A stretch of 64,000 nt of DNA, taken from positions 62,001-126,000 of the forward strand of contig NZ_MJEJ02000041.1 of the NCBI RefSeq assembly GCF_002095435.2. Direction: 5' to 3'. The stretch is from Williamsia sp. 1138. Lineage in GTDB: Bacteria; Actinomycetota; Actinomycetes; Mycobacteriales; Mycobacteriaceae. Below, one piece after another: positions 13,663 through 32,925 of the stretch (the stretch's first letter is position 1; each line of letters starts with the position of its first letter). The notes under the pieces are model-generated. The model did no database searches. It worked only from the letters and a program-made list of their open reading frames with translations, and had not been told where the DNA came from. The position numbers were made by a program, and so were the translations under genes.

Positions 13663-14990
13663 CAATCGCGGGACGGGCACACCAAGTCGGTCGAAGGAGC
13701 GCCAGACCAGGGGGCGCCGGGCGAGCTCTTCGGCCTCGCCGAGACGGCGTCGCTGTACCTTGCCGACTCCCGGACCGCGGGGAAGTGCGTCCGTCTGGAT
13801 CATCCACGCCGGTCGCATGAACCTCGGCAGGTCGTCGAGAAGCTGGGACACCGCGGAGGGATCGGGATCGCCGACGACGTAGACGGCCAGCTCTGCGGTG
13901 TCCTCGGTGGTCCACGCCGAAGCTTCCTGGACGCCCTCGAGATTCGCGAACATGCTGTCGAGATACGACAGGGGTACGTACTCGCCTCTCATCCGGACCG
14001 ATTCGCCCATCCGCTCGATGAACACCAGTTCATCGCCTTCGGCCCGGCCAGGGTCACCGGTGCGGAACCATCCGTCGTCGGCGGGGGCCTGGTCCACCAC
14101 CGCCCGGCAGCGCGGTCATGCCCTCCGGAATGCTCAGCCGTTCTCCGTGACGCCGCAACCTGGTGTGGGTCAATCCACCGAACTCGGTGGAACCATAGCC
14201 CGTGACCCCGAGTGGGATACGGAAACGAGTCAGGAGTTCCTCGTTGGCGAAGAATAAGGCCCGCACCGTGTGTGCCCGTGAGGGCCGGATTCTTGAGCAG
14301 GATCTGAACCGGGGTCCGTGCAAGATCAGGACGGTCGCATGGTGTTCGGCGACCGTCGCCCAGAACCGGGATGCCGAGAAGCGCGGTGAGGTGGCAAAGT
14401 CCGACAGCCCACACAGGGCGCCCATCAGTCCGTATCCGAGTGGGTTGATGTGGAACAGCGGCAACGGCGCGTACACGACGTCGGCGGGCGACAGGCAGAA
14501 GGTGTCCGCCACATACTGGCCGATCTCGAGCAGATAGCGGTGCGATTGTGCGCACAGTTTGGGCTTTCCCGACGTACCAGAGGTGTACATCAGCGTGGCG
14601 ATGTCGAGAGGGTCGCGGTCGGTTCCCCAGTCGCCTCTCCGGTCACCGGTGCGCAGCACCCCGTCAACGGATACGGCGCCGGACAGCACGGCCGAATAGT
14701 CGATCTGGTGACCGTCGCCTGCCGCGATTGACCCGGACTCAGAGGCGACTGCAGCGGCACCCACCTCGCCGATGAGGCCGGTTATCAGATCGGCCGGATA
14801 CTCGGGGTTCATCAGAATCGTCTGCAGTCCGGAGATCTGGGCCGCGAACCAGAACACCGTGTACTGGAGGGGATTGGTGCCGACGAGTAAGAGGGTGGAT
14901 CCAGGGCTCAGGCCGACATCGGTCAGTGCTGCCGAGACCCGTTGTGCCGCATCGATCGCCACGATTGGGACCAGGTCAGGGGACCGGTAC
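13663..14990 (-). pseudogene. decayed acyl-CoA ligase (AMP-binding) gene
   Basis: Reads from 14962 downward as an AMP-forming ligase: AAQRVSAALTDVGLSPGS, P-loop LMYTSGTSGKPKLCAQSHRY, GYGSTEFGGLTHT, then RTGDPG. The homology changes frame: around 14310 it moves into a second frame (PVQILLKNPALTGTH) and back near 14270, and near 14105 it passes into a third frame carrying DDGWFRTGDPGRAEGDELVF. The 5' end lacks a proper start and joins a thiolase remnant near 14970-14990. The 3' end has no credible stop before the convergent hydrolase. At least three indels make it non-functional unless the sequence contains errors. Confidence 0.8.
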
Positions 14991-17538: not shown

Positions 17539-19095
17539 CTACTCCCGAATCGAGTAGGTGGCCCGCAACGCTTTCTTGTCGATCTTTCCGTTGCTCAAGG
17601 TGGGTAGGTCGGGAACAAAATACATCTTGCGCGGGCACTTGTAGCCGGCCAGCCGGGTCTTGACGAAAGTTCGGATCTCGGTCTCGTCGACGTGTGAGTC
17701 CGCAGCCGGCACGATCACCGCGGTCACTGCTTCTCCCCAACGCGGATCAGGCGTTCCGATCACGGCGCACTCCTCGATCCCCGGATGCGTGGCGAGTGCG
17801 TTCTCGACCTCCAGTGAATAGATATTCTCCCCGCCGGAGATCACGACATCCTTCTTGCGGTCGACCAGGAACAGCAGCCCGTCGTCGACCACGCCGATGT
17901 CGCCGGTATGGCACCAACCGTCGCGCAGGACTTCGGCCGTTCGGACACTGTCGTTCCAGTAGCCGCGGAACATGGCCTCGCAACGGACCGTGATCTCGCC
18001 GGGATGCCCAGGGTCCGCATCGTCGCCGCTGTCGGTCACGATGCGCACCCGGGTACCCGGGAACGGATAGCCCACCGAGCGCAGCCGACGCGCGTCCGCG
18101 TCCGTATCGGCGGTCCGGTGCAGCTCCGGTGGAAGCCCTGAGGTGATGACCTCGGTCTGTCCGTACAGGTTCATGAAGTTGACGTTCGGCATGGTCTCGA
18201 GGGCGGCGGCAAGCGCGGTGCTGGTGATCGGTGCAGCCGAATAGACCACCGTGCGAACAGTCTTCAACGTCGCGGCATCGTGTCGCGCAGCGGCGACGAC
18301 CTCGGCCAGCATGGTCGGCGCCAGGTGCAGGACGGTGATCTGTTCGTCGGCAGCGGTGGCCAGCACATGTGCCGGATCGAAAGCTTCATGAAGGACGGCA
18401 CCGCCACCGCGTGCGTGGATGCCCAGCGCCATCGCCATGGCTCCGACGTGGAACATCGGCATACACAACAGGATCTTGTCCGCCGATCCCGATCGCATCT
18501 CACCGTTCATGGTGAGGGCGAGGCGGTGCATCTCGTGCTGCCCGAGTATGCAGCCCTTCGGCTTTCCCGTGGTGCCACTTGTGTAGATGAGGCACGCGAT
18601 GTCGTCGGGACGCGCCTCGTAGGGTGGATCTTCGGCGAGTTCGGCCAAGAGTGCGTCGAGGTTCAGCACCCCAGGGGTCGCCGGACGATCCGGCGCACCC
18701 ATCCGGACGAACAGCTCCACCTCCGGGAGTTCCTCTCGGACGTCGGCGATCATGTCCTCGTATTCGGCACCGTAGAACAGGACCCGAGGCGCGGCGTCCG
18801 CCATGATGTTCACGATCTCGGGAGCGGCGAGCCGGAAATTGATGGTGGCCACCACGATTCCGCTCAACTGCCCTGCGGCCAGCACTCGCGCGAAATCAAG
18901 GGTGTTGCGATCGAGAACCGCGATGCGATCCTGTCGCCGGATTCCGCGGGCACTGAGCGCAGTGGCGATGGTCGCCGCATCGATACGAAGCCGGCCATGA
19001 GTGAGCACCGAGCCTGCCGATACGTACGCAGGCTGGTCGGGGAAGCGAATCGCGTTGTGGGAGATGGTCTGTCCGAGTGTCGAATCGGGTGACAT
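17539..19095 (-). CDS. AMP-dependent acyl-CoA synthetase (FadD-like), 518 aa
   Basis: ATP-dependent acyl/aryl-CoA ligase that would activate a carboxylic acid at entry to the pathway. Motifs in order: CLIYTSGTTGKPKGCILGQH (P-loop), NLYGQTEVITSG, WCHTGDIGVVDDG, DRKKDVVISGGENIYSLEVE, and C-terminal SNGKIDKKALR with the catalytic Lys. Complete length. Divergent from the isochorismatase-SDR-VOC operon; the shared promoter carries a TTGAC-N6-GTCAA element at 19188-19203. Confidence 0.93.
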   Translation of the reverse strand: MSPDSTLGQTISHNAIRFPDQPAYVSAGSVLTHGRLRIDAATIATALSARGIRRQDRIAVLDRNTLDFARVLAAGQLSGIVVATINFRLAAPEIVNIMADAAPRVLFYGAEYEDMIADVREELPEVELFVRMGAPDRPATPGVLNLDALLAELAEDPPYEARPDDIACLIYTSGTTGKPKGCILGQHEMHRLALTMNGEMRSGSADKILLCMPMFHVGAMAMALGIHARGGGAVLHEAFDPAHVLATAADEQITVLHLAPTMLAEVVAAARHDAATLKTVRTVVYSAAPITSTALAAALETMPNVNFMNLYGQTEVITSGLPPELHRTADTDADARRLRSVGYPFPGTRVRIVTDSGDDADPGHPGEITVRCEAMFRGYWNDSVRTAEVLRDGWCHTGDIGVVDDGLLFLVDRKKDVVISGGENIYSLEVENALATHPGIEECAVIGTPDPRWGEAVTAVIVPAADSHVDETEIRTFVKTRLAGYKCPRKMYFVPDLPTLSNGKIDKKALRATYSIRE

Positions 19096-19187
19096 GGTGA
19101 TCTTTCGTCAGTCCGCGACTTCAGACGCAGAAGCGATGCCGGTGTGAGACATCTGTGGAATGCCCGGACCGGCGCGGTTGTGGGAGG

Positions 19188-19203
19188 TTGACGAAACTGT
19201 CAA
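19188..19203. promoter_or_regulatory. candidate TetR operator, site 1
   Basis: TTGACGAAACTGTCAA, an inverted repeat with TTGAC/GTCAA arms, between the ligase and the isochorismatase-fold gene. It matches two other sites (22740-22755 and 25334-25349) at 11 of 16 positions in all three. The likely binder is the TetR protein at 24514-25167 (inference). Confidence 0.6.
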
Positions 19204-19312
19204 AAACCCATAGCTTAAGTTAGCGTCGGCGCCGTCTGCAGTCAATGACGCGTGGAGTCAATTGGCGCCGGCGAGTCGAACAGACGCCGGCACCGAGTGT
19301 GAGGACACAACC

Positions 19313-19948
19313 ATGGGATCGCGTACCGAGTGGGATCTGGCCGGAACCGCGGTGGTCGCCATCGAGTGTCAGAACGGCACACTAGGGGACGACGTGGCCA
19401 TACCCGCGTTGCGTGACGCCGCGGGAGATCTTGTCGATCGCATCGACGAGGTGCTGCAGGCCGCGCGGGCCCACGGCGTCCGAGTGGTGCATGCAATCTA
19501 CGAAGGAGCGCTCGGCGCAGCCAATCTCGGCACCGAGCCCCTCTGGCGACATATCGGACCGGCGTCGGCGAACTGGACTCCGGGCAGCCTTCCGACCCAG
19601 GTGCTGCCCCGCCTGCTCGACCCGGCCGACGTCGTATCGCCGCGCCACCACGGCCTGTCGCCGGTCCAGGGCACCGAGCTGCTCCCTCTGCTCAAGAACT
19701 TCGGTATTCACACGGTGGTGCTCGTGGGTGTATCGGTGAACGTTGCGGTCCTGGTCACTGCGGCCGCCGCGGCTGGTGAGGGTTTCCATGTCGTGGTGGC
19801 GCGTGATGCGGTACGTGGCGTCCCGCCCGAGTATGGCGAGATGGTCCTGGAGAACTCGATCCGCCAGGTCGCCCGGCTGGCCCGGTCCACTGATCTGGCT
19901 TCCCAGTGGCAGGCTGCTGCAGCCAACGCACAGGTCGCGGCACGCTGA
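19313..19948 (+). CDS. isochorismatase-fold protein lacking the catalytic Cys, 211 aa
   Basis: Isochorismatase/cysteine-hydrolase fold: AVVAIECQNGTLGDD at the N-terminus, RHHGLSPVQGTEL in the middle and VGVSVNVAVLVTAA at the C-terminal nucleophile loop. The canonical Asp is Glu18 and the nucleophilic Cys position is Ala145, so hydrolysis by the usual mechanism is not expected. Similar Cys-less forms occur in actinobacteria, with unknown role. ATG at 19313 has GAGGA upstream. First gene of a four-gene operon with SDR, VOC and SnoaL-like products. Confidence 0.83.
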   Translation: MGSRTEWDLAGTAVVAIECQNGTLGDDVAIPALRDAAGDLVDRIDEVLQAARAHGVRVVHAIYEGALGAANLGTEPLWRHIGPASANWTPGSLPTQVLPRLLDPADVVSPRHHGLSPVQGTELLPLLKNFGIHTVVLVGVSVNVAVLVTAAAAAGEGFHVVVARDAVRGVPPEYGEMVLENSIRQVARLARSTDLASQWQAAAANAQVAAR

Positions 19949-19993
19949 GAAAGCCGTTGACCCTCACCCCCACAATCGGAACCGAGGACATCC

Positions 19994-20851
19994 ATGACTC
20001 TTGACAAGTCCGTAGATCTGAGCGGCCGGACCGCCTTCATCACCGGCGGCAGTCGAGGTATCGGCGCGGCCATCGCGCGCGCTTTCTCCGACGCCGGCGC
20101 GACAGTGGTGTTGTTCGCGAAATCAGGTTCGGCGCATGCCACCTTGCCGGGAACGGTGTACAGCGTCGCCGAGGAGATCGAGCGGGCCGGGGGCCGCGCA
20201 TTGGCCATCCCGGGGGACCTCCGCATCGACGCGGATGTCGAATCGGCCATCGCCCGGACAGCGGAGGTCTTCGGGGGCCTCGACATCGTTGTCAACAACG
20301 CGGCCGCCTTCGACACGACCCCCACATCCAAGGTGTCGATGAAGCGCTACGACCTCCTGCAGGCCATCAATGCCCGAGGGAGCTTCGCGGTGTCCCGGGC
20401 GGCAATCCCGTACCTCACACAATCGCCGGCGGGGCACATTCTCTCTATTTCTCCGCCGCTCGACCTCGAACCGAAATGGCTTGGCGCGCACCTGGCTTAC
20501 ACGACATCGAAGTACGCCGTCAGCCTTGCGACGCTCGGGCTCGCGGCAGAACTCGCCAATTCGGGTGTCGCGGCCAACTCGCTGTGGCCGGCAACGGCTG
20601 TCGCCACCGAGGCCATCCGCTCGATCCTCGGCGAGGAAGTCGCCGAACACAAGGCCCGTTCGGTCGACATCATGGCCGATGCGGCGCTGGCCGTCGTGCG
20701 CCGGGACCCGCGGACGTGTTCGGGCAATCTCTTCACCGACGAGCAGGTACTCGCGGCCGAGGGCAAAACGGATCTGTCCGAGTACAGCGTCGGTGAGGGC
20801 GAATTGTCCCGCAGCTTCTTTGTCGCCGACTCGGCTGAGGTGAGCGCGTGA
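19994..20851 (+). CDS. short-chain dehydrogenase/reductase (HSDL2-like), 285 aa
   Basis: NAD(P)-dependent Rossmann-fold oxidoreductase: TGGSRGIG at 17-24, DIVVNNAAAFDTT near 95, Ser in HILSISPPL and YTTSKYAVSL. The long dinucleotide-loop insertion and LDLEPKWLGAHLAY segment resemble the HSDL2 subgroup, tied to fatty-acid metabolism. The stop overlaps the VOC start (GTGA), so it is co-translated. Likely oxidises a hydroxyacyl intermediate (inference). Confidence 0.88.
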   Translation: MTLDKSVDLSGRTAFITGGSRGIGAAIARAFSDAGATVVLFAKSGSAHATLPGTVYSVAEEIERAGGRALAIPGDLRIDADVESAIARTAEVFGGLDIVVNNAAAFDTTPTSKVSMKRYDLLQAINARGSFAVSRAAIPYLTQSPAGHILSISPPLDLEPKWLGAHLAYTTSKYAVSLATLGLAAELANSGVAANSLWPATAVATEAIRSILGEEVAEHKARSVDIMADAALAVVRRDPRTCSGNLFTDEQVLAAEGKTDLSEYSVGEGELSRSFFVADSAEVSA

Positions 20852-21771
20852 ACACGGTCGCGGTGGCCCGCACGGAATCACGGCGGGCCGAGCATGCCCA
20901 TTCGGTGATGCACTGCAATCTCAACAGTGCCGACGTGATCCGTTCGCAGCAGTTTTATGCGGATCTGTTCGCGGTACGCGACCGGATGCGTTCGATCAGT
21001 GAAGACACCGACGGCCGGTTCATGGGACTGTCCGAACACACCGCGAGCGAGACGGTCTTCCTGTACGACGGACGTGGACCGAGATCCGCGCCGGCCCTCG
21101 AACTGGTGCAGTGGCATGATCCCCAGCTCATCCGACGCTCCGATCTGGGTGCCGACGCACCGGGTTTCCGGGTGATCGGATACCGCGTCAACTCGTTGGC
21201 ATCCGTTCCTGGTGCCGGAGGAGGCGAATCCGTTGTCGTCCGGGGACGGGCGCGGAAGGCGATTCGAGTCACCGACCCCGATGGAGTGATCGTCGAGATC
21301 GTGGAAGTCGCAGCGGTGGAATCAGATCCGAAGACACCGATGCTGAGCCACACCCGAATGGTGGTGAGCGATCTGGAACGCTCGGTGGCCTGGTATTCGA
21401 CCATCGGATTTGTTGTTCGGCCCGACGACACCGACGTGACGCGATCGGTACCCGGTGCATCGCTGTACCTGCCGGAGGATCCGACCTTCTCCTTCGAACT
21501 CGAGTGCCCGGTCGAGCAGGTGGAGATCGAGCCGAAGGTCGCCAACACGCAGGGCCTCTACCGCGTCGCAGCTGCGGTCGAGGATGTGAAGGCCGCCTAT
21601 ACGGCGCTCGCGAAAGCTGATCCGGCCACTCCGGAGCCCGGCTTTGTCCCGATGCCCGACGTGCCGACCGGAGGCTTCACGGTTCTGTTCCTGTCCGACC
21701 CCGACGGGCTCGTCGTCGAATTGGTCGACCGGCCGCGGAACACTGTTCGACGCCCGCTGCAGCCGCTGTGA
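20848..21771 (+). CDS. two-domain VOC (glyoxalase/dioxygenase-fold) protein, 307 aa
   Basis: Vicinal-oxygen-chelate protein with two repeats. The first starts SVMHCNLNSADVIRSQQFY, the second MLSHTRMVVSDLERSVAWY; each ends with a D-P-D-G strand (VTDPDGVIVEIVEV and LSDPDGLVVELVD). Length suits a type-I extradiol-like or isomerase arrangement, with His and Glu as possible metal ligands. Substrate unknown; GTG start overlaps the SDR stop by 4 nt. Confidence 0.83.
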   Translation: MNTVAVARTESRRAEHAHSVMHCNLNSADVIRSQQFYADLFAVRDRMRSISEDTDGRFMGLSEHTASETVFLYDGRGPRSAPALELVQWHDPQLIRRSDLGADAPGFRVIGYRVNSLASVPGAGGGESVVVRGRARKAIRVTDPDGVIVEIVEVAAVESDPKTPMLSHTRMVVSDLERSVAWYSTIGFVVRPDDTDVTRSVPGASLYLPEDPTFSFELECPVEQVEIEPKVANTQGLYRVAAAVEDVKAAYTALAKADPATPEPGFVPMPDVPTGGFTVLFLSDPDGLVVELVDRPRNTVRRPLQPL

Positions 21772-21790
21772 TGAACCACCGGGCGAAGCC

Positions 21791-22243
21791 ATGATCGAGA
21801 TGTCGGTCGCCGACCGCGTTGCCCTCGACGCCTTGCTCTCGCGGTACACGGGTCTCGGCGACAGCGGCCGCGTCGAAGAGTTCGCGGCGCTGTTCACCGA
21901 GGACGGTGTACTCACTGTTGCCGGTCGTCGGTTCGTCGGCCCGGACGAGATTGTCGCCTTCGCCGAGCAGTCCGGTGCGGCGATGGCCGCCATCACGAGT
22001 TTGCTTCCCGGCTCCCATCACGTGTCGTCGCGGATGACCGAGCTCGTTTCCGACGATTCTGCGACGTCGCAGAGTCTGTTCATGTTTGTCGGAACATCCG
22101 GTCCCGATCACTGGGGTACGTATCGAGATCACCTGATTCGTATCGGTGATGGGTGGCGATTCCTCTCTCGGAGTGTACGTTTCACCGGTTTTTCGCCGAG
22201 TTCCGGCGTGCGCGGCTATGTGGAATCATTGGCGCGGTCCTGA
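21791..22243 (+). CDS. SnoaL/NTF2-like protein, 150 aa
   Basis: Small cone-fold protein: ALDALLSRYTGLGDSGRVEE, FAALFTEDGVLTVAGRRFVG, and WGTYRDHLIRIGDGWRFLSR are typical of SnoaL-4 domains, which include dehydratases, isomerases and non-catalytic partners. ATG at 21791 begins 20 nt after the VOC stop. Last gene of the operon; a terminator hairpin follows at 22307-22348. Confidence 0.8.
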   Translation: MIEMSVADRVALDALLSRYTGLGDSGRVEEFAALFTEDGVLTVAGRRFVGPDEIVAFAEQSGAAMAAITSLLPGSHHVSSRMTELVSDDSATSQSLFMFVGTSGPDHWGTYRDHLIRIGDGWRFLSRSVRFTGFSPSSGVRGYVESLARS

Positions 22244-22306
22244 ATGTATCGGCCCGGACGGCTGCTGATCTGCGTTGAGTAGATGGTGCGGTGCGGTGCG
22301 GTGCTC

Positions 22307-22348
22307 GCTCCGCCAGGGGCGTGCTGGGGAGCACACCCCTGGCGGAGC
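22307..22348. terminator. hairpin between convergent operon ends
   Basis: Nineteen-base arms (GCTCCGCCAGGGGCGTGCT against AGCACACCCCTGGCGGAGC, one G-T wobble) around GGGG. It sits between the stop at 22243 (+) and the small gene ending at 22357 (-), so it can serve both. Confidence 0.8.
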
Positions 22349-22356
22349 GTTGCACG

Positions 22357-22518
22357 TTATCGCGGACCGGGAGTCGCGTCGTCGAGCACCTCGGGATCGT
22401 CGTTGTCGTCCTCGGGTTGCGGATTCGTCGCGTCCGTCACCGTCTTCTTGTCACCGAGGCCCGCTTCTTCGAGACTTGTCTCGTCCGTGACCTGCTGACT
22501 GTTGTCCAACCCTGACAT
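22357..22518 (-). CDS. small acidic protein, 53 aa
   Basis: Short gene read directly from the minus strand: it starts MSGLDNSQQVTDETSLEEAG, continues through an Asp/Glu-rich middle (PQPEDDNDDPEVLDD) and ends ATPGPR then TAA. The ribosome site is strong (GAGAGGAG, 6 nt before the ATG), and a terminator lies just downstream, so it looks like a real monocistronic gene. No family recognised; likely disordered. Function unknown. Confidence 0.7.
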   Translation of the reverse strand: MSGLDNSQQVTDETSLEEAGLGDKKTVTDATNPQPEDDNDDPEVLDDATPGPR

Positions 22519-22858
22519 AGCCGCTCCTCTCGTGTTATGAATAGCTAACTATTTAGACTGTATCCTTTCGGGTGCGAGACTGGTGCACTTCGCGGCCACC
22601 CGATTCGGGAAGCGGAGTCGCCGATCGACTCGACGATTGCGTCAACTGACGGGTAGCCGCGAGTGCGACCTGTTGAAGTGGGAAAATGCGCGGAATATTT
22701 AACATGGCGGCGTGGCAGCCTGCGAATTGTCGACGATACTTGACGATAGCGTTGACAATCGCTTCACTGAACTCCTACCGTGTAGGTTCAGCGGGTTGAC
22801 CGGCGTGACCGCGGTCACGTACGTCGCACGATCACCTTGCGATGGAAAGGGACAACAT
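22519..22858. promoter_or_regulatory. 340-bp intergenic region with operator-like site 3
   Basis: No convincing gene. An inverted repeat AATAGCTAACTATT (22539-22552) lies in the promoter of the acidic-protein gene. At 22740-22755 TTGACGATAGCGTTGA matches the motif at 19188 and 25334. A further half-site TTGTCGACGA lies at about 22727. The downstream DUF35/Ltp operon starts at 22859 with GGAAAGGGA upstream. Confidence 0.55.
22740..22755. promoter_or_regulatory. candidate TetR operator, site 3
   Basis: TTGACGATAGCGTTGA, about 105 bp before the DUF35-like gene. It shares TTGACGANANNGTNNA with sites 19188-19203 and the reverse complement of 25334-25349. Binding by the TetR protein at 24514-25167 is inferred. 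Confidence 0.55.
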
Positions 22859-23311
22859 ATGACCGAACAAGTGCCGCTGGCCGAGGGATTGTTCACCTGG
22901 CCTGCCGACAAGCCGGCGCTACTCGCCGGAAAATCCTCGGACGGAAAGCTTGTGTTCCCCTATCGGAGTCACAAGATCGTGGGGAAAGTCCGCGAAGAGC
23001 TCGAGCAGGTCGAGCTACCTCGGCGCGGAACACTGTGGACCTTCACCACTCAGAGGTTCCGGCCGCCGCAGCCGCCGTACAACGGCAACGACGACGCCAA
23101 GACCTTCCAGCCGTTTGCTGTCGGGTACGTGGAACTCGAGGGCGCGCTGCGGGTGGAAGCCCGCCTCACCGAGGCGGACCCCGAGAAGCTCACCATCGGC
23201 CAGGAGATGGAACTCGCGATCGTGCCTTTCGGTGTCGATGCCGAAGGCCGCGAAACAATGATCTACGCGTTTGCGCCGGTCGAGAAAGGTCAGGACGATG
23301 TCGTCGAGTGA
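22859..23311 (+). CDS. DUF35/OB-fold-type acyl-CoA-associated protein without Zn ribbon Cys, 150 aa
   Basis: OB-fold partner of an Ltp-type thiolase. Visible strands: GTLWTFTTQRFRPPQPPYNG, FQPFAVGYVELEGALRVEAR, and KLTIGQEMELAIVPFGVD, the pattern of DUF35 C-terminal domains. The usual N-terminal rubredoxin-like Cys pairs are absent (KLVFPYRSHKIV instead). ATG at 22859 has a GGAAAGGGA ribosome site. Overlaps the thiolase start by 14 nt, so the two products are probably stoichiometric subunits. Confidence 0.82.
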   Translation: MTEQVPLAEGLFTWPADKPALLAGKSSDGKLVFPYRSHKIVGKVREELEQVELPRRGTLWTFTTQRFRPPQPPYNGNDDAKTFQPFAVGYVELEGALRVEARLTEADPEKLTIGQEMELAIVPFGVDAEGRETMIYAFAPVEKGQDDVVE

Positions 23312-24446
23312 CGTAGCGATCATCGGTGTCGGGTTGCACCCCTTCGGTCGGTATCCCGGAAAGTCCGCGCTCGAGATGGGTGAAGACGCTGTCTTCGACG
23401 CACTCACCGACGCGGGCATCGAGTGGTCCGACGTGCAGGAGCTGTATGCGGGCAGCATGGAGGTCAAGAATCCAGAGGCCATCGTGGGCCTTCTCGGTTT
23501 GACGGGTGTGCCGGGGCGGGCGGTCTTCACCGGTTGCGCCACCGGCGCGACGTCGCTGGCGATGGCCGCCAATTCGATCAAGCTCGGTGAGCACGACATC
23601 ACCATCGCGGTCGGTCTGGACAAGCACGAACGTGGTGCCTTCGCTGCCCATCCCTCGGTCTCGGGACTGCCGGACTGGTATGGCGAAGCCGGGCTGTTTC
23701 TCACGACCCACTTCTTCGGCATGAAGATCAACCGCTACATGCACGACTTCGGGATCACGCCCGAGACCCTTGCCAAAGTGTCCGCGAAAGCGATGCGCAA
23801 CGGCGCGGCGAACCCGTCGGCCTGGCGGCGTAAGGCTCTGTCGGAGGAAGAGATCCTCAACTCTCAGATCCTCAACTACCCGTTGACCCAATACATGTAC
23901 TGCGGGCCGGATGAGGGCGCAGCGGCCGTTGTCCTGTGCCGGGCCGACAAGGCGCACTTGTACACCGACACGCCCGTGTACCTACGGGCGAGCACACTGC
24001 GCAGCCGACGTGAAGGGGCGTTCGAACTCCTCAGTCCCTCATTGCCGTTGGAGTCCGTGCCGAGCCCTACCGTCGACGCGTCGAAGGAGGCGTACGAGAT
24101 CGCCGGGATCGCGCCGTCGGACGTCGACGTGATCCAGCTGCAGGACACCGACGCCGGTTCGGAGATCATCCATATGGCGGAGAACGGATTCTGCGCTGAC
24201 GGTGATCAGGAGAAGCTCATCGCCGCCGGGGAAACCGAGATCGCCGGGCGGCTGCCGATCAACACCGACGGCGGTTTGCTGGCCAACGGTGAACCGGTCG
24301 GCGCGTCCGGGTTGCGACAGATCTTCGAACTGGTCAATCAGTTGCGTGGGCGCGCCGGTGATCGTCAGGTCAACGACGCCAAAGTCGGTTACGCCCAGCT
24401 CTACGGCGCTCCCGGGACCGCAGCGGTCACGATCCTCTCGACCTGA
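23298..24446 (+). CDS. Ltp/SCP2-type thiolase-like protein, 382 aa
   Basis: Lipid-transfer-type thiolase homologue. The nucleophile-region Cys is present (Cys80 in FTGCATGATSLAMA), but the two His-bearing motifs are not: LQDTDAG (281-287) stands at the HDxF site and NGEPVGASG (330-338) at GHPxGASG. Such proteins paired with DUF35 partners include retro-aldolases and ketoacyl thiolases, so the reaction cannot be called. ATG at 23298 overlaps the DUF35 gene. Followed by a terminator and a TetR gene on the opposite strand. Confidence 0.87.
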   Translation: MSSSDVAIIGVGLHPFGRYPGKSALEMGEDAVFDALTDAGIEWSDVQELYAGSMEVKNPEAIVGLLGLTGVPGRAVFTGCATGATSLAMAANSIKLGEHDITIAVGLDKHERGAFAAHPSVSGLPDWYGEAGLFLTTHFFGMKINRYMHDFGITPETLAKVSAKAMRNGAANPSAWRRKALSEEEILNSQILNYPLTQYMYCGPDEGAAAVVLCRADKAHLYTDTPVYLRASTLRSRREGAFELLSPSLPLESVPSPTVDASKEAYEIAGIAPSDVDVIQLQDTDAGSEIIHMAENGFCADGDQEKLIAAGETEIAGRLPINTDGGLLANGEPVGASGLRQIFELVNQLRGRAGDRQVNDAKVGYAQLYGAPGTAAVTILST

Positions 24447-24499
24447 TCGCTCGCTCCGATCCGATCGGGAGTGAGGCGTAGGGTCCCCGTCCACGATTC

Positions 24500-24532
24500 G
24501 CTCGCCAACGGCGTCACCGGCCGTTGGCGAGC
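24500..24532. terminator. hairpin at convergent gene ends
   Basis: Perfect 12-bp arms (GCTCGCCAACGG / CCGTTGGCGAGC) with a 9-nt loop, 54 bp after the thiolase stop. The stop codon of the convergent TetR gene (24514-24516) lies in the loop. Confidence 0.75.
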
Positions 24533-25167
24533 AAGTCGTGTATCTGCTCGGCGAGCGTGGAGATCATGTCCTCGTCGTCCACCGGCAACCGCCACACGCG
24601 GCTGTAGAAGTACGACTGGTCGAGCATGGCCATCATCGTCAGGCCGAGCGCCTCGGGTGCCTCGTAGCGCCGCTCCTGTCGAGAGACCAGGTTCGTTCCC
24701 AGCAGCCAGGCCACCCGCATCTGAGTGCGCTGAGACGTGCGCCGGAACTCGTCATCGGTTGGGGCGGACTGGGTCGAGGAGAAGATGAACGCGCCGTGCC
24801 GGTCCATGAAGTCGAAGTATTGACGCACCCACGAGGCCACATCGGACAGCGCGGCCGGAGAAGGGATGTCCGACCACAGCGACACCACCGCGAGGATCTC
24901 TTTGTACGTCTCCTCGCCGATCGTGTTGAACACCTCTCGCTTATCGCGGAAGTAAGTGTAAAAGCCTGCGCGGGATATGCCGCAGGCGTCGGTGATGTTG
25001 TTTATCCGGGTGCCGGCGTAGCCACGTTCGAGGAACAGTTTGCGGGAGGCTTCGAGAATCGCCTCGCGGGTCCGTACCGCGCGTTCACCGAGAGCAGCGC
25101 CGCCCTCGGGCGTCGCCACGGTGCCCGAGGTCGCGCCGACACTATCTGGTGACTCGTGTGATGTCAT
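24514..25167 (-). CDS. TetR-family transcriptional regulator, 217 aa
   Basis: N-terminal helix-turn-helix (about residues 32-78): REAILEASRKLFLERGYAG, INNITDACGISRAGFYTYF. The C-terminal helical ligand domain includes FDFMDRHGAFIFSSTQSA. It lies between the two DUF35/Ltp operons, and three matching inverted repeats (19188, 22740, 25334) flank it. It probably represses these catabolic operons until a CoA-ester inducer binds, as KstR-like TetR proteins do (inference). Confidence 0.92.
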   Translation of the reverse strand: MTSHESPDSVGATSGTVATPEGGAALGERAVRTREAILEASRKLFLERGYAGTRINNITDACGISRAGFYTYFRDKREVFNTIGEETYKEILAVVSLWSDIPSPAALSDVASWVRQYFDFMDRHGAFIFSSTQSAPTDDEFRRTSQRTQMRVAWLLGTNLVSRQERRYEAPEALGLTMMAMLDQSYFYSRVWRLPVDDEDMISTLAEQIHDLLANGR

Positions 25168-25333
25168 ATGTGATGATCCCCGTGGGTTGTCCGGAGACGG
25201 TCTCCGGCGGTCGCTGCGCGAGATCTACAAACGGGCTCTGCCTCCTTGACGTGTGGGTCAACTATACGGCCATCACCTCCGAATGCGGCAACACAAACGC
25301 TGGAGGGGATGCTGGCGACGACCCGGAGCGCAC

Positions 25334-25349
25334 TTGACGCTGTCGTCAA
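25334..25349. promoter_or_regulatory. candidate TetR operator, site 2
   Basis: TTGACGCTGTCGTCAA lies between the TetR gene and the DUF35/Ltp2 operon, a classic place for autoregulation plus control of the neighbour. Like site 1 it is followed within 6 nt by CATAGC, which may be part of the promoter. Confidence 0.62.
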
Positions 25350-25436
25350 AACAGGCATAGCGTGATGGTTGAACCACAATCGGTGTAATCGGTTAACCCG
25401 ATGCCAGGCACCGACTTCAGATCTCCAGGAGCAGAT

Positions 25437-25886
25437 GTGACCATCCCGTATGTACGACCGGAGTTCCGGATGCTTCCGGCTCCGACACCGCAATCTCAGG
25501 ATTATTGGGCCGGGGGCCGCGATGGCGAGTTGCTCATCCACCGGTGTCACACCTGCCAGAACTTCTTCCTTCCGGGTGCGCCGGTGTGCTGGCGGTGCCG
25601 AAGCACCGACGTGGCGCCCGAACCCGTCTCAGGCTGCGGATCGGTTGCTGCTTTCACCGTGAATCGGCAAACCTGGATTCCGGCATTTCCGCCGCCGTAT
25701 ACCGTCGCGCTGATCGAACTGGCCGAACAGCCGGATACCCGGGTTGTCAGCAACATCGTGGACATCGATCCTGCTGACGTGACGATCGGTCTCGAGGTCG
25801 AGGTCTTCTTTGAAGAGTGGGAAGACGTCTGGATTCCCCTATTCCGTCCAGTGGACGTGTCCCGTCCCGCAAAGGAGTCGAACTGA
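25437..25886 (+). CDS. Zn-ribbon OB-fold (DUF35) protein, 149 aa
   Basis: DUF35 protein with the N-terminal helix, rubredoxin-like zinc ribbon (RCHTCQNFFLPGAPVCWRC, two CxxC pairs) and a C-terminal OB fold (VAAFTVNRQTWIPAFPPPYT). In steroid side-chain degradation the ChsH2 DUF35 domain supports the Ltp2 aldolase. Start GTG at 25437 has AGGAG 5 nt upstream; an ATG at 25401 lacks a good ribosome site. The stop overlaps the next start (TGATG). Confidence 0.9.
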   Translation: MTIPYVRPEFRMLPAPTPQSQDYWAGGRDGELLIHRCHTCQNFFLPGAPVCWRCRSTDVAPEPVSGCGSVAAFTVNRQTWIPAFPPPYTVALIELAEQPDTRVVSNIVDIDPADVTIGLEVEVFFEEWEDVWIPLFRPVDVSRPAKESN

Positions 25887-27079
25887 TGGGTGGCCGCGGA
25901 GGTCCTTTCGAAGGCAAGGCCCTGGTGACCGGCGCCGGCAAGTCCCAGGTGGGACGTAGACTCGGTCGAACCGGTCTCGACCTCACCGTCGAGGCTTCAC
26001 TCCGTGCGATCGCGGACGCCGGTCTCTCACCCGACGACATCGACGGAGTTGCCAGTTACCCCGGTCCGGGCATGCCTGATCCGGGTTTCTCCGGGGCGAG
26101 CGTGCACGAACTCCGCAACGCGCTGGGACTGCGGAGCAATTGGTACGTCAGCAGTTCGGAGACCGCCGGGCAGATCGGTCCGGTGATCGAGGCATGCATG
26201 GCCGTGGCGACCGGCCTGGCCGACCACGTGTTGTGCTTCCGGTCGGTGTGGGAGTCAACCGCGCAGGCATCCAAAGGTCGCGGTTCGGTACTGATGGGTA
26301 CCGGTCGCGCGAATCCCCACCACGAGTTCTTCGGTCCGTACGGCGCCATCTCTGCCGCCAACTGGTTGGCGATGCCCGCGCAGCGGTACATGCACGAGTT
26401 CGGCCTCACTCGTGAACAGCTCGGCGCGATCGCGGTCAACGCGAGAAAGAATGCTGCGCTCAACCCTGATGCGATCTATCGCGACCCGATGTCGTTGCAG
26501 GACTATCTCGATGCGCGGATGATCTCGGATCCGTTCTGTCTCTACGACTGTGACGTGCCGTGTGATGGCGCGACCGCGGTGATCATCTCACGCAGAGATG
26601 CCGCGAAAGGCCTGCCGCGACAGCCACTGACAGTCGAATCGGTGGGTACGGGGATGTTCGAACGGGCCACCTGGGACCAGCGCAAGGATCTGACCACCAT
26701 GGCGGCGCACGATGCGTCCGCAACGTTGTGGAACCGCACCGACATGACCGTCGGGGATGTGGACTTCGCGCAGCTCTACGATGGTTTCAGCTTCCTGACG
26801 GTGCAATGGCTCGAGGCACTTGGTTTCTGCGAGCGCGGCAAGGTCGGTCAGTACATCGAAGGCGGCGAGCGCATTTCGTTGCAGGGTGAACTACCGGTCA
26901 ATTCCAGCGGTGGACAGCTCTCCGGCGGACGCCTGCACGGTATGGGGTTCCTGCACGAGGCGTGCGTGCAGCTGTGGGGCGAGGGAGGTCCGCGGCAGGT
27001 CGGTGGTGACGCAGAGGTTGCCGTCGTTGCCGTGGGTGGTGGTCCGGTGGCCGGGGCGATGCTGCTCAGCACCCGCTAG
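25886..27079 (+). CDS. Ltp2-like thiolase-fold retro-aldolase candidate, 397 aa
   Basis: Thiolase-fold protein missing every thiolase catalytic residue: the Cys region reads VSSSETAG (88-95), the first His motif is YDGF (298-301) and the GHP motif is GGRLHG (347-352). This pattern resembles the Ltp2 family, whose steroid members carry out retro-aldol cleavage of a CoA side chain together with a DUF35 protein. Translational overlap with the DUF35 gene at 25437 and the nearby MaoC gene repeat the ChsH1-ChsH2-Ltp2 arrangement. Cleavage of a beta-hydroxyacyl-CoA is therefore the best prediction; substrate unknown. Confidence 0.9.
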   Translation: MGGRGGPFEGKALVTGAGKSQVGRRLGRTGLDLTVEASLRAIADAGLSPDDIDGVASYPGPGMPDPGFSGASVHELRNALGLRSNWYVSSSETAGQIGPVIEACMAVATGLADHVLCFRSVWESTAQASKGRGSVLMGTGRANPHHEFFGPYGAISAANWLAMPAQRYMHEFGLTREQLGAIAVNARKNAALNPDAIYRDPMSLQDYLDARMISDPFCLYDCDVPCDGATAVIISRRDAAKGLPRQPLTVESVGTGMFERATWDQRKDLTTMAAHDASATLWNRTDMTVGDVDFAQLYDGFSFLTVQWLEALGFCERGKVGQYIEGGERISLQGELPVNSSGGQLSGGRLHGMGFLHEACVQLWGEGGPRQVGGDAEVAVVAVGGGPVAGAMLLSTR

Positions 27080-27154
27080 TCTTCGTCCGTCATCACCCCA
27101 TGCTGTCGCGGGGTTCGAACAATCGATTCAAACACTGAGAGAAGGAAATTGCAC

Positions 27155-27610
27155 ATGGAGGTCTACCGAGGGATCGCCGATCTCGAAGCGGCAGTCGGTA
27201 AAGAACTGGGGCCGTCCGATTGGTTCCCGATCGAACAAGATCGGGTCGACGGGTTCGCCGACGTCACCGAGGACCATCAGTGGATTCACGTCGACACGGA
27301 AAAGGCCGTGAACGGACCGTTCGGGGCGACGATCGCGCACGGGTTCCTATCTTTGTCGCTCGTGCCCTATTTCGTGAGCCAGTTACGCCGCATCGAAGGC
27401 GCGAAGATGGGGGTCAACTACGGTCTCGACCGGGTGCGGTTCCCGTCGCCGGTCCGAGCGGGTAGTCGCATCCGTGCTCGTACGATTGTCAAGACCGTCG
27501 ACCGGATCGACGAAGACTCTGTCCAGTTGGTCATGCGCACCACGATCGAGGTCGAGGGTAGTGAGAAGCCGGGCTGCGTGGCGGATCTGGTGAGTCGCTA
27601 TTACTTCTGA
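27155..27610 (+). CDS. MaoC-family (R)-specific enoyl-CoA hydratase, 151 aa
   Basis: Single hotdog MaoC dehydratase: FADVTEDHQWIHVD supplies Asp40 and His45, the hydratase pair, and GPFGATIAHGFLSLSLVPYF follows. It hydrates a trans-2-enoyl-CoA to the hydroxyacyl-CoA that an aldolase could cleave. ATG at 27155 with GAAGGA upstream is preferred over TTG at 27149. Last gene of the TetR-flanked operon; a strong terminator follows. Confidence 0.92.
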   Translation: MEVYRGIADLEAAVGKELGPSDWFPIEQDRVDGFADVTEDHQWIHVDTEKAVNGPFGATIAHGFLSLSLVPYFVSQLRRIEGAKMGVNYGLDRVRFPSPVRAGSRIRARTIVKTVDRIDEDSVQLVMRTTIEVEGSEKPGCVADLVSRYYF

Positions 27611-27641
27611 CCCGCCACCGGTTCGCGCGGCCGAGACGGCA

Positions 27642-27676
27642 AAAGGCCCGCAGGTCCCAAGGACCTGCGGGCCTTT
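27642..27676. terminator. strong hairpin between convergent genes
   Basis: Perfect 16-bp stem (AAAGGCCCGCAGGTCC / GGACCTGCGGGCCTTT) with CAA loop, followed by TGTCATG. It separates the MaoC gene (+) from the thiolase gene (-). Confidence 0.88.
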
Positions 27677-27694
27677 GTCATGCCTCCTGGACGA

Positions 27695-28894
27695 TCAGAC
27701 CTCGATGACCATGGCCGCGCCCATGCCACCGCCGGCGCACATCGCGATGACACCGATGCCGCCACCGAGACGGCGAAGTTCGTAGACCATGGTGGTTGCC
27801 ATCCGCGCTCCGGTGGCCGCGATGGGATGTCCGAGGCTGATTCCCGAGCCCGACACGTTGACCCGGTCCTCGTCCAGCTCGAGCACCTTGGTGCAGGCGA
27901 TGACCTGCGCCGCGAATGCCTCGTTGATGTCGAACAGGCGAACGTCCCTGAGCGACAAGCCGGCCCGGGCCAACGCGCGTGGGATGGCGATCGTCGGTCC
28001 GATCGCCGTCCTGTTGGGTTCGACGCCCACCGCCGACCACGACCGGATCACACCGAGCGTCTCCAGACCCTCTGCCTTCGCGAGCCCGTCAGAGACGACG
28101 GTCAGCGCGGCGGCCGCGTCGTTGATACCCGACGAGTTGCCTGCCGTCACCGAGAACCCCTCGATCTCCGGATGGATGACTCGCAGACCGGACAGCACCT
28201 CGAGATTGGTGCCGCGCCTTGGGTGCTCGTCGACGGCGAAATCCACGGTCTCGCCGGCCTTGTTTGTCACGGTGATGGGGACGATCTCGGAGTCGAAACG
28301 GCCGTCGTCGATGGCCGCGATGGCGCGCTCATGTGACCGCGCCGCCCATTCGTCCTGCTGCTGTCGGGTGATGTCGTACTGAACTGCGGCATTCCAGCCA
28401 ACGGTGATCGACATGTCCATCGCCGGTGCGTCCGGCGTTCCCGGATGCGACGGCGAAAACCACGGATCAGTCCAGTCGTCGGCGTTCTTTCCGGACGTAC
28501 CCGGCGTCCGGCGGCGTCCGACGGGCGACATCGACGCGGCCTCGGTTCCTCCGGCGATCACCGCATCACCCATACCGGACATGATTGTTGCGGCGGCGGA
28601 TGCGACCGCGGTGAGGCCGGTGGCGCACTGCCGGTTCACGGCCATCCCGGGTATCGAGGTCAATCCGTTCGCGGCCGCGACGTAGCGGGCGATGTCACCG
28701 CCACCCTGGTACACCTCGCCGAGTACCAGGTCGTCGAAGACCTCCGGTGACAGGCCTGACCGCTTCACGACATTGGTGACGACGTGGCCGGCGAGTTCTT
28801 CGGCAGTGGTCTCGGTCAGCGTTCCCTTGCGGGCGGTTCCGATCGGCGTTCGGCAGGCGGCCGTTATCACCGCCCGGGGCTGTTCAGTGCCCAC
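27695..28894 (-). CDS. acetyl-CoA acetyltransferase (thiolase), 399 aa
   Basis: Classical thiolase with Cys90 (AVNRQCATGLTAV), His in GHPIAATG and Cys in CAGGGMG, so a working beta-ketoacyl-CoA thiolase. GTG start at 28894 has GAGGAGGA 4 nt upstream. A short middle insertion (PGTSGKNADDWTDPWFSP) is typical of an acetoacetyl-type subgroup. Divergent from the ligase-FadE operon. Confidence 0.94.
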   Translation of the reverse strand: MGTEQPRAVITAACRTPIGTARKGTLTETTAEELAGHVVTNVVKRSGLSPEVFDDLVLGEVYQGGGDIARYVAAANGLTSIPGMAVNRQCATGLTAVASAAATIMSGMGDAVIAGGTEAASMSPVGRRRTPGTSGKNADDWTDPWFSPSHPGTPDAPAMDMSITVGWNAAVQYDITRQQQDEWAARSHERAIAAIDDGRFDSEIVPITVTNKAGETVDFAVDEHPRRGTNLEVLSGLRVIHPEIEGFSVTAGNSSGINDAAAALTVVSDGLAKAEGLETLGVIRSWSAVGVEPNRTAIGPTIAIPRALARAGLSLRDVRLFDINEAFAAQVIACTKVLELDEDRVNVSGSGISLGHPIAATGARMATTMVYELRRLGGGIGVIAMCAGGGMGAAMVIEV

Positions 28895-29169
28895 CTGGTC
28901 CTCCTCGATGTGCGGCCGACGTCGGTCGCCGGCCGGAGTGAGATCGCCGCATGAGCCTGGGACGGCAATCAGTTATAAGATAATCCCAATTTAGCATGGG
29001 AGCCGGGCGATCCTACGCGCTCGCCGAGTCTGCCTGAATTGTCGAAACGGTATTGCCTATTCTCCAAATCATTGTACTGTATGGCCTGTATATCGGTGCC
29101 TGCCGTCGGTTGTTCCGGCCGGTCGCGTGCCCTGACGAATCTGTCTCCCTCCCCGGAAAGGACACTGCT
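28895..29169. promoter_or_regulatory. divergent promoter region, 275 bp
   Basis: The region between thiolase (-) and ligase (+) has an AT-rich element CAATCAGTTATAAGATAATC at 28966-28985, one of the recurrent AATCAG promoter elements. At 29039-29054 TTGTCGAAACGGTATT is a degenerate match to the TetR motif (9 of 11 invariant positions). No gene seen. Confidence 0.42.
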
Positions 29170-30792: not shown

Positions 30793-32925
30793 ATGGGATT
30801 GCCCATCAGCACCGAACACATCGAACTCGCTGAATCGGTGCGCAAGGTCTTGTCCGACAGAGGTGCCATCGGCGCAGCCAGGACGACGACCGATACCGGA
30901 TGCACCACAGTGCCGTTCTGGAAAGATCTGGTCTCCCTTGGCTGGTTGGGGTTGCACATCCCGGAGCAGTACGGCGGACAGGGTTTCGGAACCGCGGAAC
31001 TCGCGGTTGTACTCGAAGAACTCGGCCGTGCCGTTGCGCCAGGCGACTTTCTCCCGACGGTGATCGCCTCCGAGCTGATCCGACTGGCGGGGTCCGAGGA
31101 CCAGCGCACCGCGCTGCTCCCAGAGCTCTCTGCCGGTGAAGTCACTGCCGCCATCGGGCTCGGTGGCGACATCACGGTTGACGCCGACGGTGCGGTCGGT
31201 GGTGCCGGCGGTGCCCTGCTCGGTGGCGGGTCGGCCGAGGTCTTTGTCCTCCGGTCCGAAGCCGACGTGGTGTTGGTCCGGCGGGGACGTGGAGTCGAGG
31301 TCGAGGTCGTGGTCGGGATGGATGGGACGCGCCCGTCGGCGCGCGTGTCGTGTTCCGCTGCAACCCCACTGGCAGTCCTGCCGGGCGCGTGTGCCACTCT
31401 CCTCGCGGTGGCACAGGCGTTTTCCGCCGCCGAGGCCGCTGGCGGCGCCCGCGCTTGTACGGAGGCCGCGGTTGCCTATGCCATGACACGGTCGCAGTTC
31501 GGTCGCACCATCGGGAGCTTCCAGGCCGTCAAGCACTTGTGCGCGAACATGTTCGTGGACACCGAGATAGCAACGGCTGCTGCCTGGGATGCGTCGCGGG
31601 CAGATCTGGACTCGGCCGAAGGCAGGTTTGCCGCCGCGGTTGCCGCAGACCAGGCCATCGGCGCCTTCGCAGTATCGGCGCAGCGCAACATCCAGGTACA
31701 CGGTGGGGTCGGTTTCACGTGGGAACACGACGCCCACCTGCTCCTTCGCCGGGCCTATGTGCTGCGAGCGGTCTTCGGTCACGATGCCGCTCGTCAGGTG
31801 GCACGGCTGGCGATCGATGGGGTACACCGCCCACCGAGTCTCGAGCTCCCGGAGGACGCCGACACATTTCGGCGCGGTGCGCGGGCGTTCCGAGATCAGT
31901 ATCTGACCACACCTGCGGGTGAGCGGGTGTCACTGCTCGCGCGATCCGGGTTTGCGTTTTCCCATTGGCCCGCGCCATATGGTCGTTCGGCGGGACCAGT
32001 CGAGCAACTCGTCATCGAGGAGGAGCTGGCCGTGATCCCGAAGCTCGATCTCGGCATCGGCAACTGGATCGTTCCGACACTGCTCCAGCAGGGAACAGAC
32101 GAGCAGATCGACCGCTGGATCTGGTCGTCACTCGACGGCGACATCAGGTGGTGTCAGTTGTTCAGCGAACCCGGCGCGGGATCGGATGCGGCGGCGATCA
32201 GTACCCGGGGAGTGCGCACAGAAGGTGGCTGGCTGGTTACCGGCCAGAAGGTCTGGACCAGCGACGCGCAGAACTGCAACCGCGGACTCGCGACCGTACG
32301 CACCAACAAGGACGCTCCGAAACATGCCGGCGTTTCGATGCTGGTCATCGACCTCGAATCCGACGGGGTCGAGATCCGGCCGCTGCGTGACATCACCGGC
32401 GATGCCACCTTCAACGAGGTCTTTCTCGACAACGTCTTCGTCCCGGATGCAGATGTCGTCGGCGCCGTCGACCAAGGGTGGAAGGTCGCCCGGGCCACGC
32501 TGGGCAACGAGCGTGTGACGATCGGTGGCGGTGTAGCAGAGTTCGTCGACCTCGATGTGGCGGTCCAGGCTGTCGCCGGCGCCGAAAAGGTAACTGACAC
32601 AGAATTGTTAAGCAGGGTCGGCCACCTGGTTGCCGAACGGCAGGCCATGCGTATGCTGTCTTTGCGTCTGGCAGCACGTGCGGTGTCCGGCGCCGGTCCG
32701 GGACCCGAAGGTAACGTGACAAAGCTGTTGGCCGGCGAACACCAGCAGCGGGTCGCTGATCTGCTTCTGCAGGTGGGCGGTGCGGAATGGGCTCTTGGAG
32801 GCACCGCGGATGTGCATGAAGGTGTGTTGTTCGTGCGCGGACTCACCATCGCCGGGGGAACGTCTGAGGTCGTCCGGAATCAGATCGCCGAGCGAGTTCT
32901 CGGTCTGCCGCGCGAAAAGATGTGA
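30793..32925 (+). CDS. double-domain acyl-CoA dehydrogenase (FadE34-like), 710 aa
   Basis: Two fused dehydrogenase units. The first (about 1-345) has IPEQYGGQGFG, RSQFGRTIGSFQAVKH and HGGVGFTWEHDAHLLLRRA, but no SEPGAGSD strand. The second (about 355-710) has CQLFSEPGAGSDAAAI, VTGQKVWTSDA and GGTSEVVRNQIAERVLGLP. Length and layout match mycobacterial FadE34/FadE6 fusions; FadE34 acts on a steroid side-chain CoA ester, where the fusion replaces an alpha-beta heteromer. The residue before GGT in the second domain is Ala. Starts 9 nt after the ligase. Confidence 0.92.
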   Translation: MGLPISTEHIELAESVRKVLSDRGAIGAARTTTDTGCTTVPFWKDLVSLGWLGLHIPEQYGGQGFGTAELAVVLEELGRAVAPGDFLPTVIASELIRLAGSEDQRTALLPELSAGEVTAAIGLGGDITVDADGAVGGAGGALLGGGSAEVFVLRSEADVVLVRRGRGVEVEVVVGMDGTRPSARVSCSAATPLAVLPGACATLLAVAQAFSAAEAAGGARACTEAAVAYAMTRSQFGRTIGSFQAVKHLCANMFVDTEIATAAAWDASRADLDSAEGRFAAAVAADQAIGAFAVSAQRNIQVHGGVGFTWEHDAHLLLRRAYVLRAVFGHDAARQVARLAIDGVHRPPSLELPEDADTFRRGARAFRDQYLTTPAGERVSLLARSGFAFSHWPAPYGRSAGPVEQLVIEEELAVIPKLDLGIGNWIVPTLLQQGTDEQIDRWIWSSLDGDIRWCQLFSEPGAGSDAAAISTRGVRTEGGWLVTGQKVWTSDAQNCNRGLATVRTNKDAPKHAGVSMLVIDLESDGVEIRPLRDITGDATFNEVFLDNVFVPDADVVGAVDQGWKVARATLGNERVTIGGGVAEFVDLDVAVQAVAGAEKVTDTELLSRVGHLVAERQAMRMLSLRLAARAVSGAGPGPEGNVTKLLAGEHQQRVADLLLQVGGAEWALGGTADVHEGVLFVRGLTIAGGTSEVVRNQIAERVLGLPREKM

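Follow-up and report, generated by a model that had tools for sequence, protein, structure and literature searches.

A predicted TetR-type repressor and its palindromic operator code at a coenzyme A-type catabolic gene cluster of Williamsia sp. 1138

What ties together the catabolic operons that surround a TetR-type regulator gene in Williamsia sp. 1138? The window considered here is a stretch of 64,000 nucleotides (positions 62,001 to 126,000 of NZ_MJEJ02000041.1) and forms part of contig C1 of a 6.08-Mb genome. It carries a gene for a TetR-type protein of 217 amino acids, here called TetR-A (24514-25167, minus strand). The initial annotation had pointed out a 16-base-pair (bp) inverted repeat at 19188, 22740 and 25334, before three operons around this gene, and had suggested a regulon under one inducer. 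The comparisons described below suggest that these palindromes are operators of TetR-A, which would act as an autoregulated repressor and block RNA polymerase at several operons of a coenzyme A (CoA) pathway. The probability of this reading is put at roughly 0.88.

The three repeats are found where they had been placed, and 11 of 16 positions are common to all of them. With up to two mismatches, the pattern proposed for them occurs 27 times in the window against a shuffle mean of 11.3, and none of 100 shuffles reached 27. All three can be described as degenerate copies of the palindrome TTGACG-N4-CGTCAA, which has five sites in three intergenic regions of the window. Operator 1, TTGACGAAACTGTCAA (19188-19203, plus strand, one mismatch), lies between the divergent genes for FadD-A (17539-19095, minus strand) and an isochorismatase-like protein (from 19313, plus strand). 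Operator 2a, TCGACGATTGCGTCAA (22630-22645, plus strand, one mismatch), and operator 2b, TTGACGATAGCGTTGA (22740-22755, plus strand, two mismatches and the weakest of the five), are situated upstream of DUF35-1/Ltp-1. Operator 3a reads TTGACCCACACGTCAA on the strand of the TetR gene (25246-25261, minus strand, one mismatch) and lies 79 bp before the TetR-A start, while operator 3b, TTGACGCTGTCGTCAA (25334-25349, plus strand, no mismatch), precedes DUF35-2/Ltp-2/MaoC. Sites 2a and 3a were absent from the initial annotation. Copies with at most one mismatch occur in the window only at 19188, 22630, 25246 and 25334 (100 dinucleotide shuffles: mean 0.25, maximum 2), and exact TTGAC-N6-GTCAA occurs three times (shuffle mean 0.04, maximum 1). 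When hexamer gaps from 0 to 7 were scanned, places with zero or one mismatch were obtained with gap 4 only; at up to two mismatches, gap 1 and gap 4 yielded 11 places each. Intergenic DNA makes up 13.6% of the window, and each of the five sites falls in it. The gene starts, and with them the intergenic labels, were taken from our own codon-usage caller, which split or missed some genes (e.g., Ltp-2 in the related genome G005).

The arrangement is conserved within the genus. Three genomes of the same genus (G005, G006 and G007) encode TetR-A with 87%, 97% and 100% identity, respectively, and hold the sites 19188, 22630, 22740 and 25246 in the same place. The counterpart of 25334 is also in place, with one mismatch in G006 and G007 and two in G005. 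The four genomes with TetR-A (G000, to which the window belongs, G005, G006 and G007) contain 3, 2, 3 and 4 exact copies of TTGACRN4YGTCAA, and nine of these 12 lie in this cluster. Five genomes of the same genus without TetR-A (best hits 1.6e-12 to 1.8e-10) contain 0, 0, 1, 0 and 0. No near plasmid relatives were found.

The palindrome also accompanies relatives of TetR-A across Actinobacteria. When named genomes were scanned with an alignment of TetR-A, 79 loci emerged. The counts cover 69 of these (L069-L137), two of which (L135 and L137) match only partly; ten loci with 29-48% identity over short stretches (L138-L147) were left out. The closest loci belong to Williamsia limnetica (100%) and W. 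muralis (96%). L069, L070 and L131 are the same records as G006, G007 and G026 and are not independent of them. TetR genes were called in 65 of the 69 loci, and 15 genus groups were assigned by hand, including two that could be placed no lower than family or order. All perfect 5-mer dyads with spacers of 0-12 were then counted in the approximately 400 bp before each TetR gene. TTGAC-N6-GTCAA was the top dyad, present exactly in 44 of 69 loci and 11 of 15 genus groups, and the runner-up, CTTGA-N8-TCAAG (26 loci), is this palindrome again, read with a shift. At four control offsets, the top dyad was found in 2, 0, 2 and 4 of 63-68 loci. Allowing one mismatch raised the count to 56 of 69 loci and 14 of 15 genus groups. 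Exact TTGACRN4YGTCAA was intergenic at 77 of 80 places in these loci. Among 44 distinct intergenic sites in which only the pentamers were fixed, a purine (A or G) occupies position 6 in 95%, and A or T predominates at positions 8-9, giving the consensus TTGACRNWWNYGTCAA. A second copy with up to two pentamer mismatches lies within 150 bp in 37 of the 44 exact-site loci, compared to about 0.15 expected per locus, and the pairs 22630/22740 and 25246/25334 fit this paired style. DNA looping between paired sites was considered and discarded, as the spacings (56-69, 88-89, 101 and 110-113 bp, plus 23, 122 and 143 bp) share no common helical phase. Four Frankia loci (L087, L093, L094 and L097) form a TetR-A subgroup with other neighbours and the variant upstream site CTGACG-N4-CGTCA[CG], a possible divergence of the operator code.

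Which genes the motif precedes was assessed in 67 loci outside Williamsia (the two Williamsia loci being left out), taking up to 500 bp ahead of each gene that had 40 bp or more of upstream space. The exact motif precedes AmidoH-1 in 43 of 52 cases, TetR-A in 41 of 65, the enoyl-CoA hydratase ECH2 (orthologue of window 36919-37722) in 15 of 18 and isochorismatase in six of eight. Smaller numbers were obtained for DUF35-4 (4/9), DUF35-2 (3/9, all Frankia) and TesB (1/2), and unlabelled genes had the motif in 23 of 404 cases. Site 19188 therefore has cross-genus counterparts, and 25334 has them in Frankia only. No motif was seen before MaoC (0/27), FadD-x (0/25), thiolase2 (0/24), AmidoH-2 (0/16), FadD-y (0/15), KshA (0/10), Ltp-2 (0/8), SDRd (0/7), FadD-A (0/4), VOC (0/1) or Ltp-4 (0/1); the same was found for DUF35-1 and Ltp-1, to which we return below. 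In the genome G093, seven of nine exact matches are on the contig bearing its three TetR-A copies, and five of these seven precede DUF35-2, DUF35-4/ECH2 or TetR-A. A weaker match proposed at 29039 was dropped as a site: it is not palindromic, its sequence is altered in G005, and none of the 15 upstream regions of FadD-y orthologues carries the motif.

A sixth site was located at C1:48264, 13.7 kb before the window and 53 bp ahead of the Amidohydro_2 gene AmidoH-1 (C1:48332-49564), and it is conserved in G005, G006 and G007. The pattern of the initial annotation has six exact places in the genome, against four for a reversed control: C1:48264, C1:81188, C1:84740 and C1:87334 (the last three being window 19188, 22740 and 25334), C1:146034 and C45:196691. 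Four of the six are thus predicted operators, C1:48264 being the new one. Exact TTGAC-N6-GTCAA occurs seven times in the genome, four times on C1 inside 40 kb and three times elsewhere (two in called genes, one outside), and all three exact TTGACRN4YGTCAA fall in this cluster. AmidoH-1 is the divergent neighbour of TetR-A in many other genera. In G026, which belongs to another genus of the same family, a TetR-A orthologue (50% identical) is divergent from an AmidoH-1 orthologue (77%), and the gap between them holds two palindromes with two and one mismatches. A site found from the window motif alone thus points to the gene that adjoins the regulator elsewhere. G026 also carries the intergenic sequence TTGACCATTTGGTCAA (C29:16179-16194, L066), which matches what we take to be the RutR operator and may belong to another regulator with the same half-sites.

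The regulator itself has features expected of the family. Pfam TetR_N is recognized at residues 37-81 (1e-13), and residues 58-76, within the helix-turn-helix, are nearly invariant among 34 aligned sequences, i.e., the window protein and 33 of the 65 called TetR genes, which were picked for spread and are 42-98% identical to TetR-A. The AlphaFold model has eight helices (mean pLDDT 80.9) and predicts an all-helical C-terminal ligand domain. TetR-A does not even approach an NCBIfam cut-off, the best score being 46.8 of 150 bits; its scores against MftR (TIGR03968; 33.7 of 224.9 bits) and RutR (TIGR03613; 22.4 of 368 bits) are likewise far below the cut-offs. The top PDB matches of the model are TetR-type regulators, with TM scores of 0.38-0.58 among the matches listed. 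Structures such as Rv0078 and EthR2 match at about 20% identity and a TM score of about 0.5, so no characterised orthologue was found among these matches.

The position of the sites relative to promoter elements was read outward on both sides of 77 intergenic sites, giving 153 usable sides. TANNNT occurs at a spacing of 17 in 23 sides and of 18 in 10. The other spacings from 6 to 43, with the exception of 11, have 0-3 sides each, the shortest ones lying inside the palindrome, where the comparison is not a fair one. The cases at 17-18 face AmidoH-1 (16/43), DUF35-4 (4/4), DUF35-2 (3/3), isochorismatase (2/7), FadD-A (1/3), TesB (1/1) and unlabelled genes (6/24), and none of the 41 sides towards TetR-A has one. 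Two of the six Williamsia sites overlap promoter-like elements in this way: 19188 reads TTGACG-N17-TAGCTT and 25334 reads TTGACG-N18-TAGCGT, so that the left half can act as a -35 box. The putative -10 elements are TAGCTT of the isochorismatase operon (19211-19216, plus strand) and TAGCGT of the DUF35-2 operon (25358-25363, plus strand). Both lie in the region of a CATAGC hexamer, which the initial annotation had reported after 19188 and 22740. This hexamer does follow 19188 (at 19209), is missing after 22740 and follows 25334 as well (at 25356); it is probably the -10 element at the two sites where it occurs.

A classical steric mechanism would account for this layout. A TetR-A dimer would bind TTGACR-N4-YGTCAA and cover the -35 box, formed by the TTGACR half, together with the spacer between -35 and -10 of the catabolic promoters, so that RNA polymerase is excluded. 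By binding beside its own promoter, TetR-A would also limit its own synthesis. A pathway intermediate, either CoA-linked or an acid, would probably release TetR-A, and four units would then be switched on together: isochorismatase-SDR-VOC-SnoaL, DUF35-1/Ltp-1, DUF35-2/Ltp-2/MaoC and the amidohydrolase at C1:48332. One putative inducer for the set may fairly be assumed. The proposal of a regulon run by the neighbouring TetR gene is, accordingly to the comparison across genera, strongly supported, and its extent has to be redrawn to five window sites plus one before the window, without 29039.

Several observations weigh against the reading of the palindromes as TetR-A operators. The genome-wide scan proposed at the outset revealed the new site ahead of AmidoH-1, but raw over-representation of the motif had to be discarded as an argument: TTGACN6GTCAA with up to one mismatch gave 177 places against 203 for the reversed control, TTGACGN4CGTCAA with up to one mismatch 35 against 39, and exact TTGACRN4YGTCAA 3 against 6. 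As raw counts are not above the control, the argument rests on place. Exact TTGACRN4YGTCAA is present in 54 of 101 genomes, and 25 of 56 genomes without a strong TetR-A hit carry one or more, so that nothing can be learned from a single match. Six other places in the window (44250, 46890, 47676, 49738, 57783 and 63572) equal 22740 at two mismatches, all of them inside called genes; 22740 is supported because it is intergenic and conserved, not because of its mismatch count. Neither 22630 nor 22740 has a counterpart outside Williamsia (DUF35-1 0/7, Ltp-1 0/21). The loci compared are related, 29 of 69 being Mycobacteriaceae, and 13 of 69 have no site within one mismatch upstream of TetR. In G093, two of the three TetR-A genes lack an exact site immediately before them. 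As for the promoters, TANNNT also peaks at a spacing of 11 (14 sides), which is unexplained, and is absent at 17-18 from all 15 sides towards ECH2 and at 16-19 from 22630, 22740, 25246 and C1:48264. A generic sigma-70 scan of 19000-28000 gave nothing above chance.

The promoter overlap raises the question of whether the motif is simply a strong sigma-70 element with TTGACR as its -35 box and no specific regulator. The 33 of 153 sides with TANNNT at 17-18 bp are in line with this idea. However, a -35 box works without an inverted second half, and still the 6-bp-gap dyad tops all dyads enumerated; position 6 is A or G in 95% of distinct sites though it was free in the search, and the sides facing TetR-A lack TANNNT at 17-18 bp. 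A mere promoter element is thus highly improbable. The same overlap bears on the direction of control. TetR-A might instead be an activator or a dual regulator: four of the six Williamsia sites show no -10 overlap at the usual spacing, and FasR, a TetR-family activator according to NCBIfam, is a weak match to TetR-A (31.6 of 330 bits, far under the cut-off). Against this, many target promoters have an operator half lying on the -35 box, a position typical of repression. Activation is therefore considered very unlikely.

The sites might also be bound by a paralogue, TetR-B (C1:54713-55345, before the window, 34% identical to TetR-A), or by both proteins in cross-talk. The two proteins are similar, and a near-palindrome, TTGACG-N4-CGCCAA, lies at C1:53651 before the TetR-B operon and is conserved in G005, G006 and G007. 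In other genera, however, the exact motif stands beside TetR-A with no TetR-B labelled within about 10 kb either way, and the recognition region, which hardly varies among the 34 aligned TetR-A sequences, differs from that of TetR-B. Binding by the paralogue seems very unlikely in view of these points, and TetR-A is retained as the probable repressor. The near-palindrome, TTGACGTCCGCGCCAA (C1:53651-53666 of G000; 13651 in L018), precedes a KshA-like/TetR-B/Fer2-reductase operon and is perhaps a TetR-B operator with a shifted half-site.

The gene content gives some indication of what the predicted regulon is for. FadD-A is an acyl-CoA synthetase (Pfam AMP-binding, 4.8e-70); with no -10 element on its side of operator 1, its membership is only possible. 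According to Pfam and the gene calls, the isochorismatase operon (19313-22243, plus strand) comprises the isochorismatase-like gene (19313-19948), an SDR (19994-20851), a VOC protein (20848-21771) and a SnoaL-like protein (21791-22243). The DUF35-1/Ltp-1 operon (22859-24446, plus strand) consists of DUF35-1 (OB_ChsH2_C, 22859-23311) and the thiolase-like Ltp-1 (23298-24446), and the DUF35-2 operon (25437-27610, plus strand) of DUF35-2 (25437-25886), Ltp-2 (25886-27079) and a MaoC hydratase (27155-27610). A KshA-like Rieske enzyme and a Fer2 reductase are encoded nearby, before the window. Because the units hold FadD, SDR, VOC, SnoaL-like, DUF35/Ltp pairs and MaoC, with the Rieske enzyme and the reductase close by, the set fits the CoA-dependent breakdown of a side chain or a ring acid. 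The closest PDB match of the Rieske gene is KshA; that of AmidoH-1 is the metal-dependent hydrolase 4dzi, followed by PtmU3, and that of the window amidohydrolase (10521-11693) is DitZ, followed by PtmU3. Polycyclic acids are hinted at by these relatives, as a lead to the substrate. A literature search on DitZ and PtmU3 returned nothing relevant among the matches listed.

Some neighbouring genes deserve mention in their own right. The amidohydrolase at 10521-11693 (Amidohydro_2) is 99.7% identical to the G005 protein, and its nearest matched neighbours are at 74-85%; it would appear unusually conserved or recently exchanged. An AMP-binding enzyme at 14054-14962 has 302 amino acids here and in G007 and 487-489 in G005 and G006, where further genes, one of them Ltp-like, lie between the longer enzyme and the thiolase. 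The lineage of the window would thus seem to have undergone a deletion. The 710-amino-acid product of 30793-32925 has acyl-CoA dehydrogenase N-terminal, middle and C-terminal domains together with two C-terminal-domain stretches, and is probably a fused double acyl-CoA dehydrogenase. Two adjoining convergent GntR/FCD regulator genes occupy 35088-36526, as they also do in G005, G006 and G007.

Beyond Williamsia, a wider proposal can be put forward tentatively, at a little short of even odds. A single subfamily of orthologous TetR proteins, sharing the operator code TTGACR-N4-YGTCAA (often paired), would govern an undescribed CoA-dependent catabolic pathway in Actinobacteria that range from Mycobacteriaceae to Frankia, Pseudonocardia and Nocardioides. 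The amidohydrolase, DUF35/Ltp modules and the enoyl-CoA hydratase would form its core, and a polycyclic terpenoid or a steroid-like acid may serve as its substrate. The predicted regulon itself supplies an operator code and a core target list for an uncharacterised TetR subfamily in 15 actinobacterial genus groups, and the characterisation of one protein and one motif could assist the annotation of many genomes. Orphan enzymes (amidohydrolase, DUF35/Ltp pairs, isochorismatase-like protein and enoyl-CoA hydratase) are grouped as likely parts of one pathway. Furthermore, the substrate of the pathway could be sought with the repressor as a sensor.

How does this predicted regulon compare with known systems? 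Motif- and gene-content searches of the open-licence literature found no description of this operator or regulon among the papers listed, which is no proof of its absence. A similar operator would be that of Escherichia coli RutR, which we take to be TTGACCANNTGGTCAA; if this is right, it has the same TTGAC/GTCAA half-sites with a 6-bp gap. RutR differs in acting on pyrimidine genes instead of CoA-type catabolic genes, and position 6 of the operator here is A or G, not C. The RutR operator is described as a palindrome of about 16 bp (PMC10891134). DarR is unlike TetR-A in its operator, ATACT-N4-AGTAT instead of TTGACR-N4-YGTCAA.

The working of the system is more reminiscent of KstR2 and BkaR. 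The KstR2 regulon of mycobacteria and rhodococci (PMC3068626) is under an autoregulated TetR-type repressor with palindromes in a few nearby divergent intergenic regions, and its CoA-dependent catabolic cluster is conserved among actinomycetes. Its operator is AnCAAGnnCTTGnT, compared to TTGACR-N4-YGTCAA here, and the two are set apart by their operators. BkaR (Rv2506/MSMEG_4718) is likewise an adjoining autoregulatory TetR protein with two palindrome copies (16-bp core) in a divergent promoter region, but it has the operator GTTA-N-T-N4-A-N-TAAC and branched-chain keto-acid genes as its targets (PMC3920632). The cluster resembles the ChsH2/Ltp2 and Sal/Shy side-chain modules (PMC12329534, PMC11321319) in that its predicted targets include MaoC and pairs of DUF35 with a thiolase-like (Ltp) protein. 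Set beside all of these systems, it would be a regulon of a known kind, working like those of KstR2 and BkaR but through another operator and on other genes, with good support from comparison and wide conservation.

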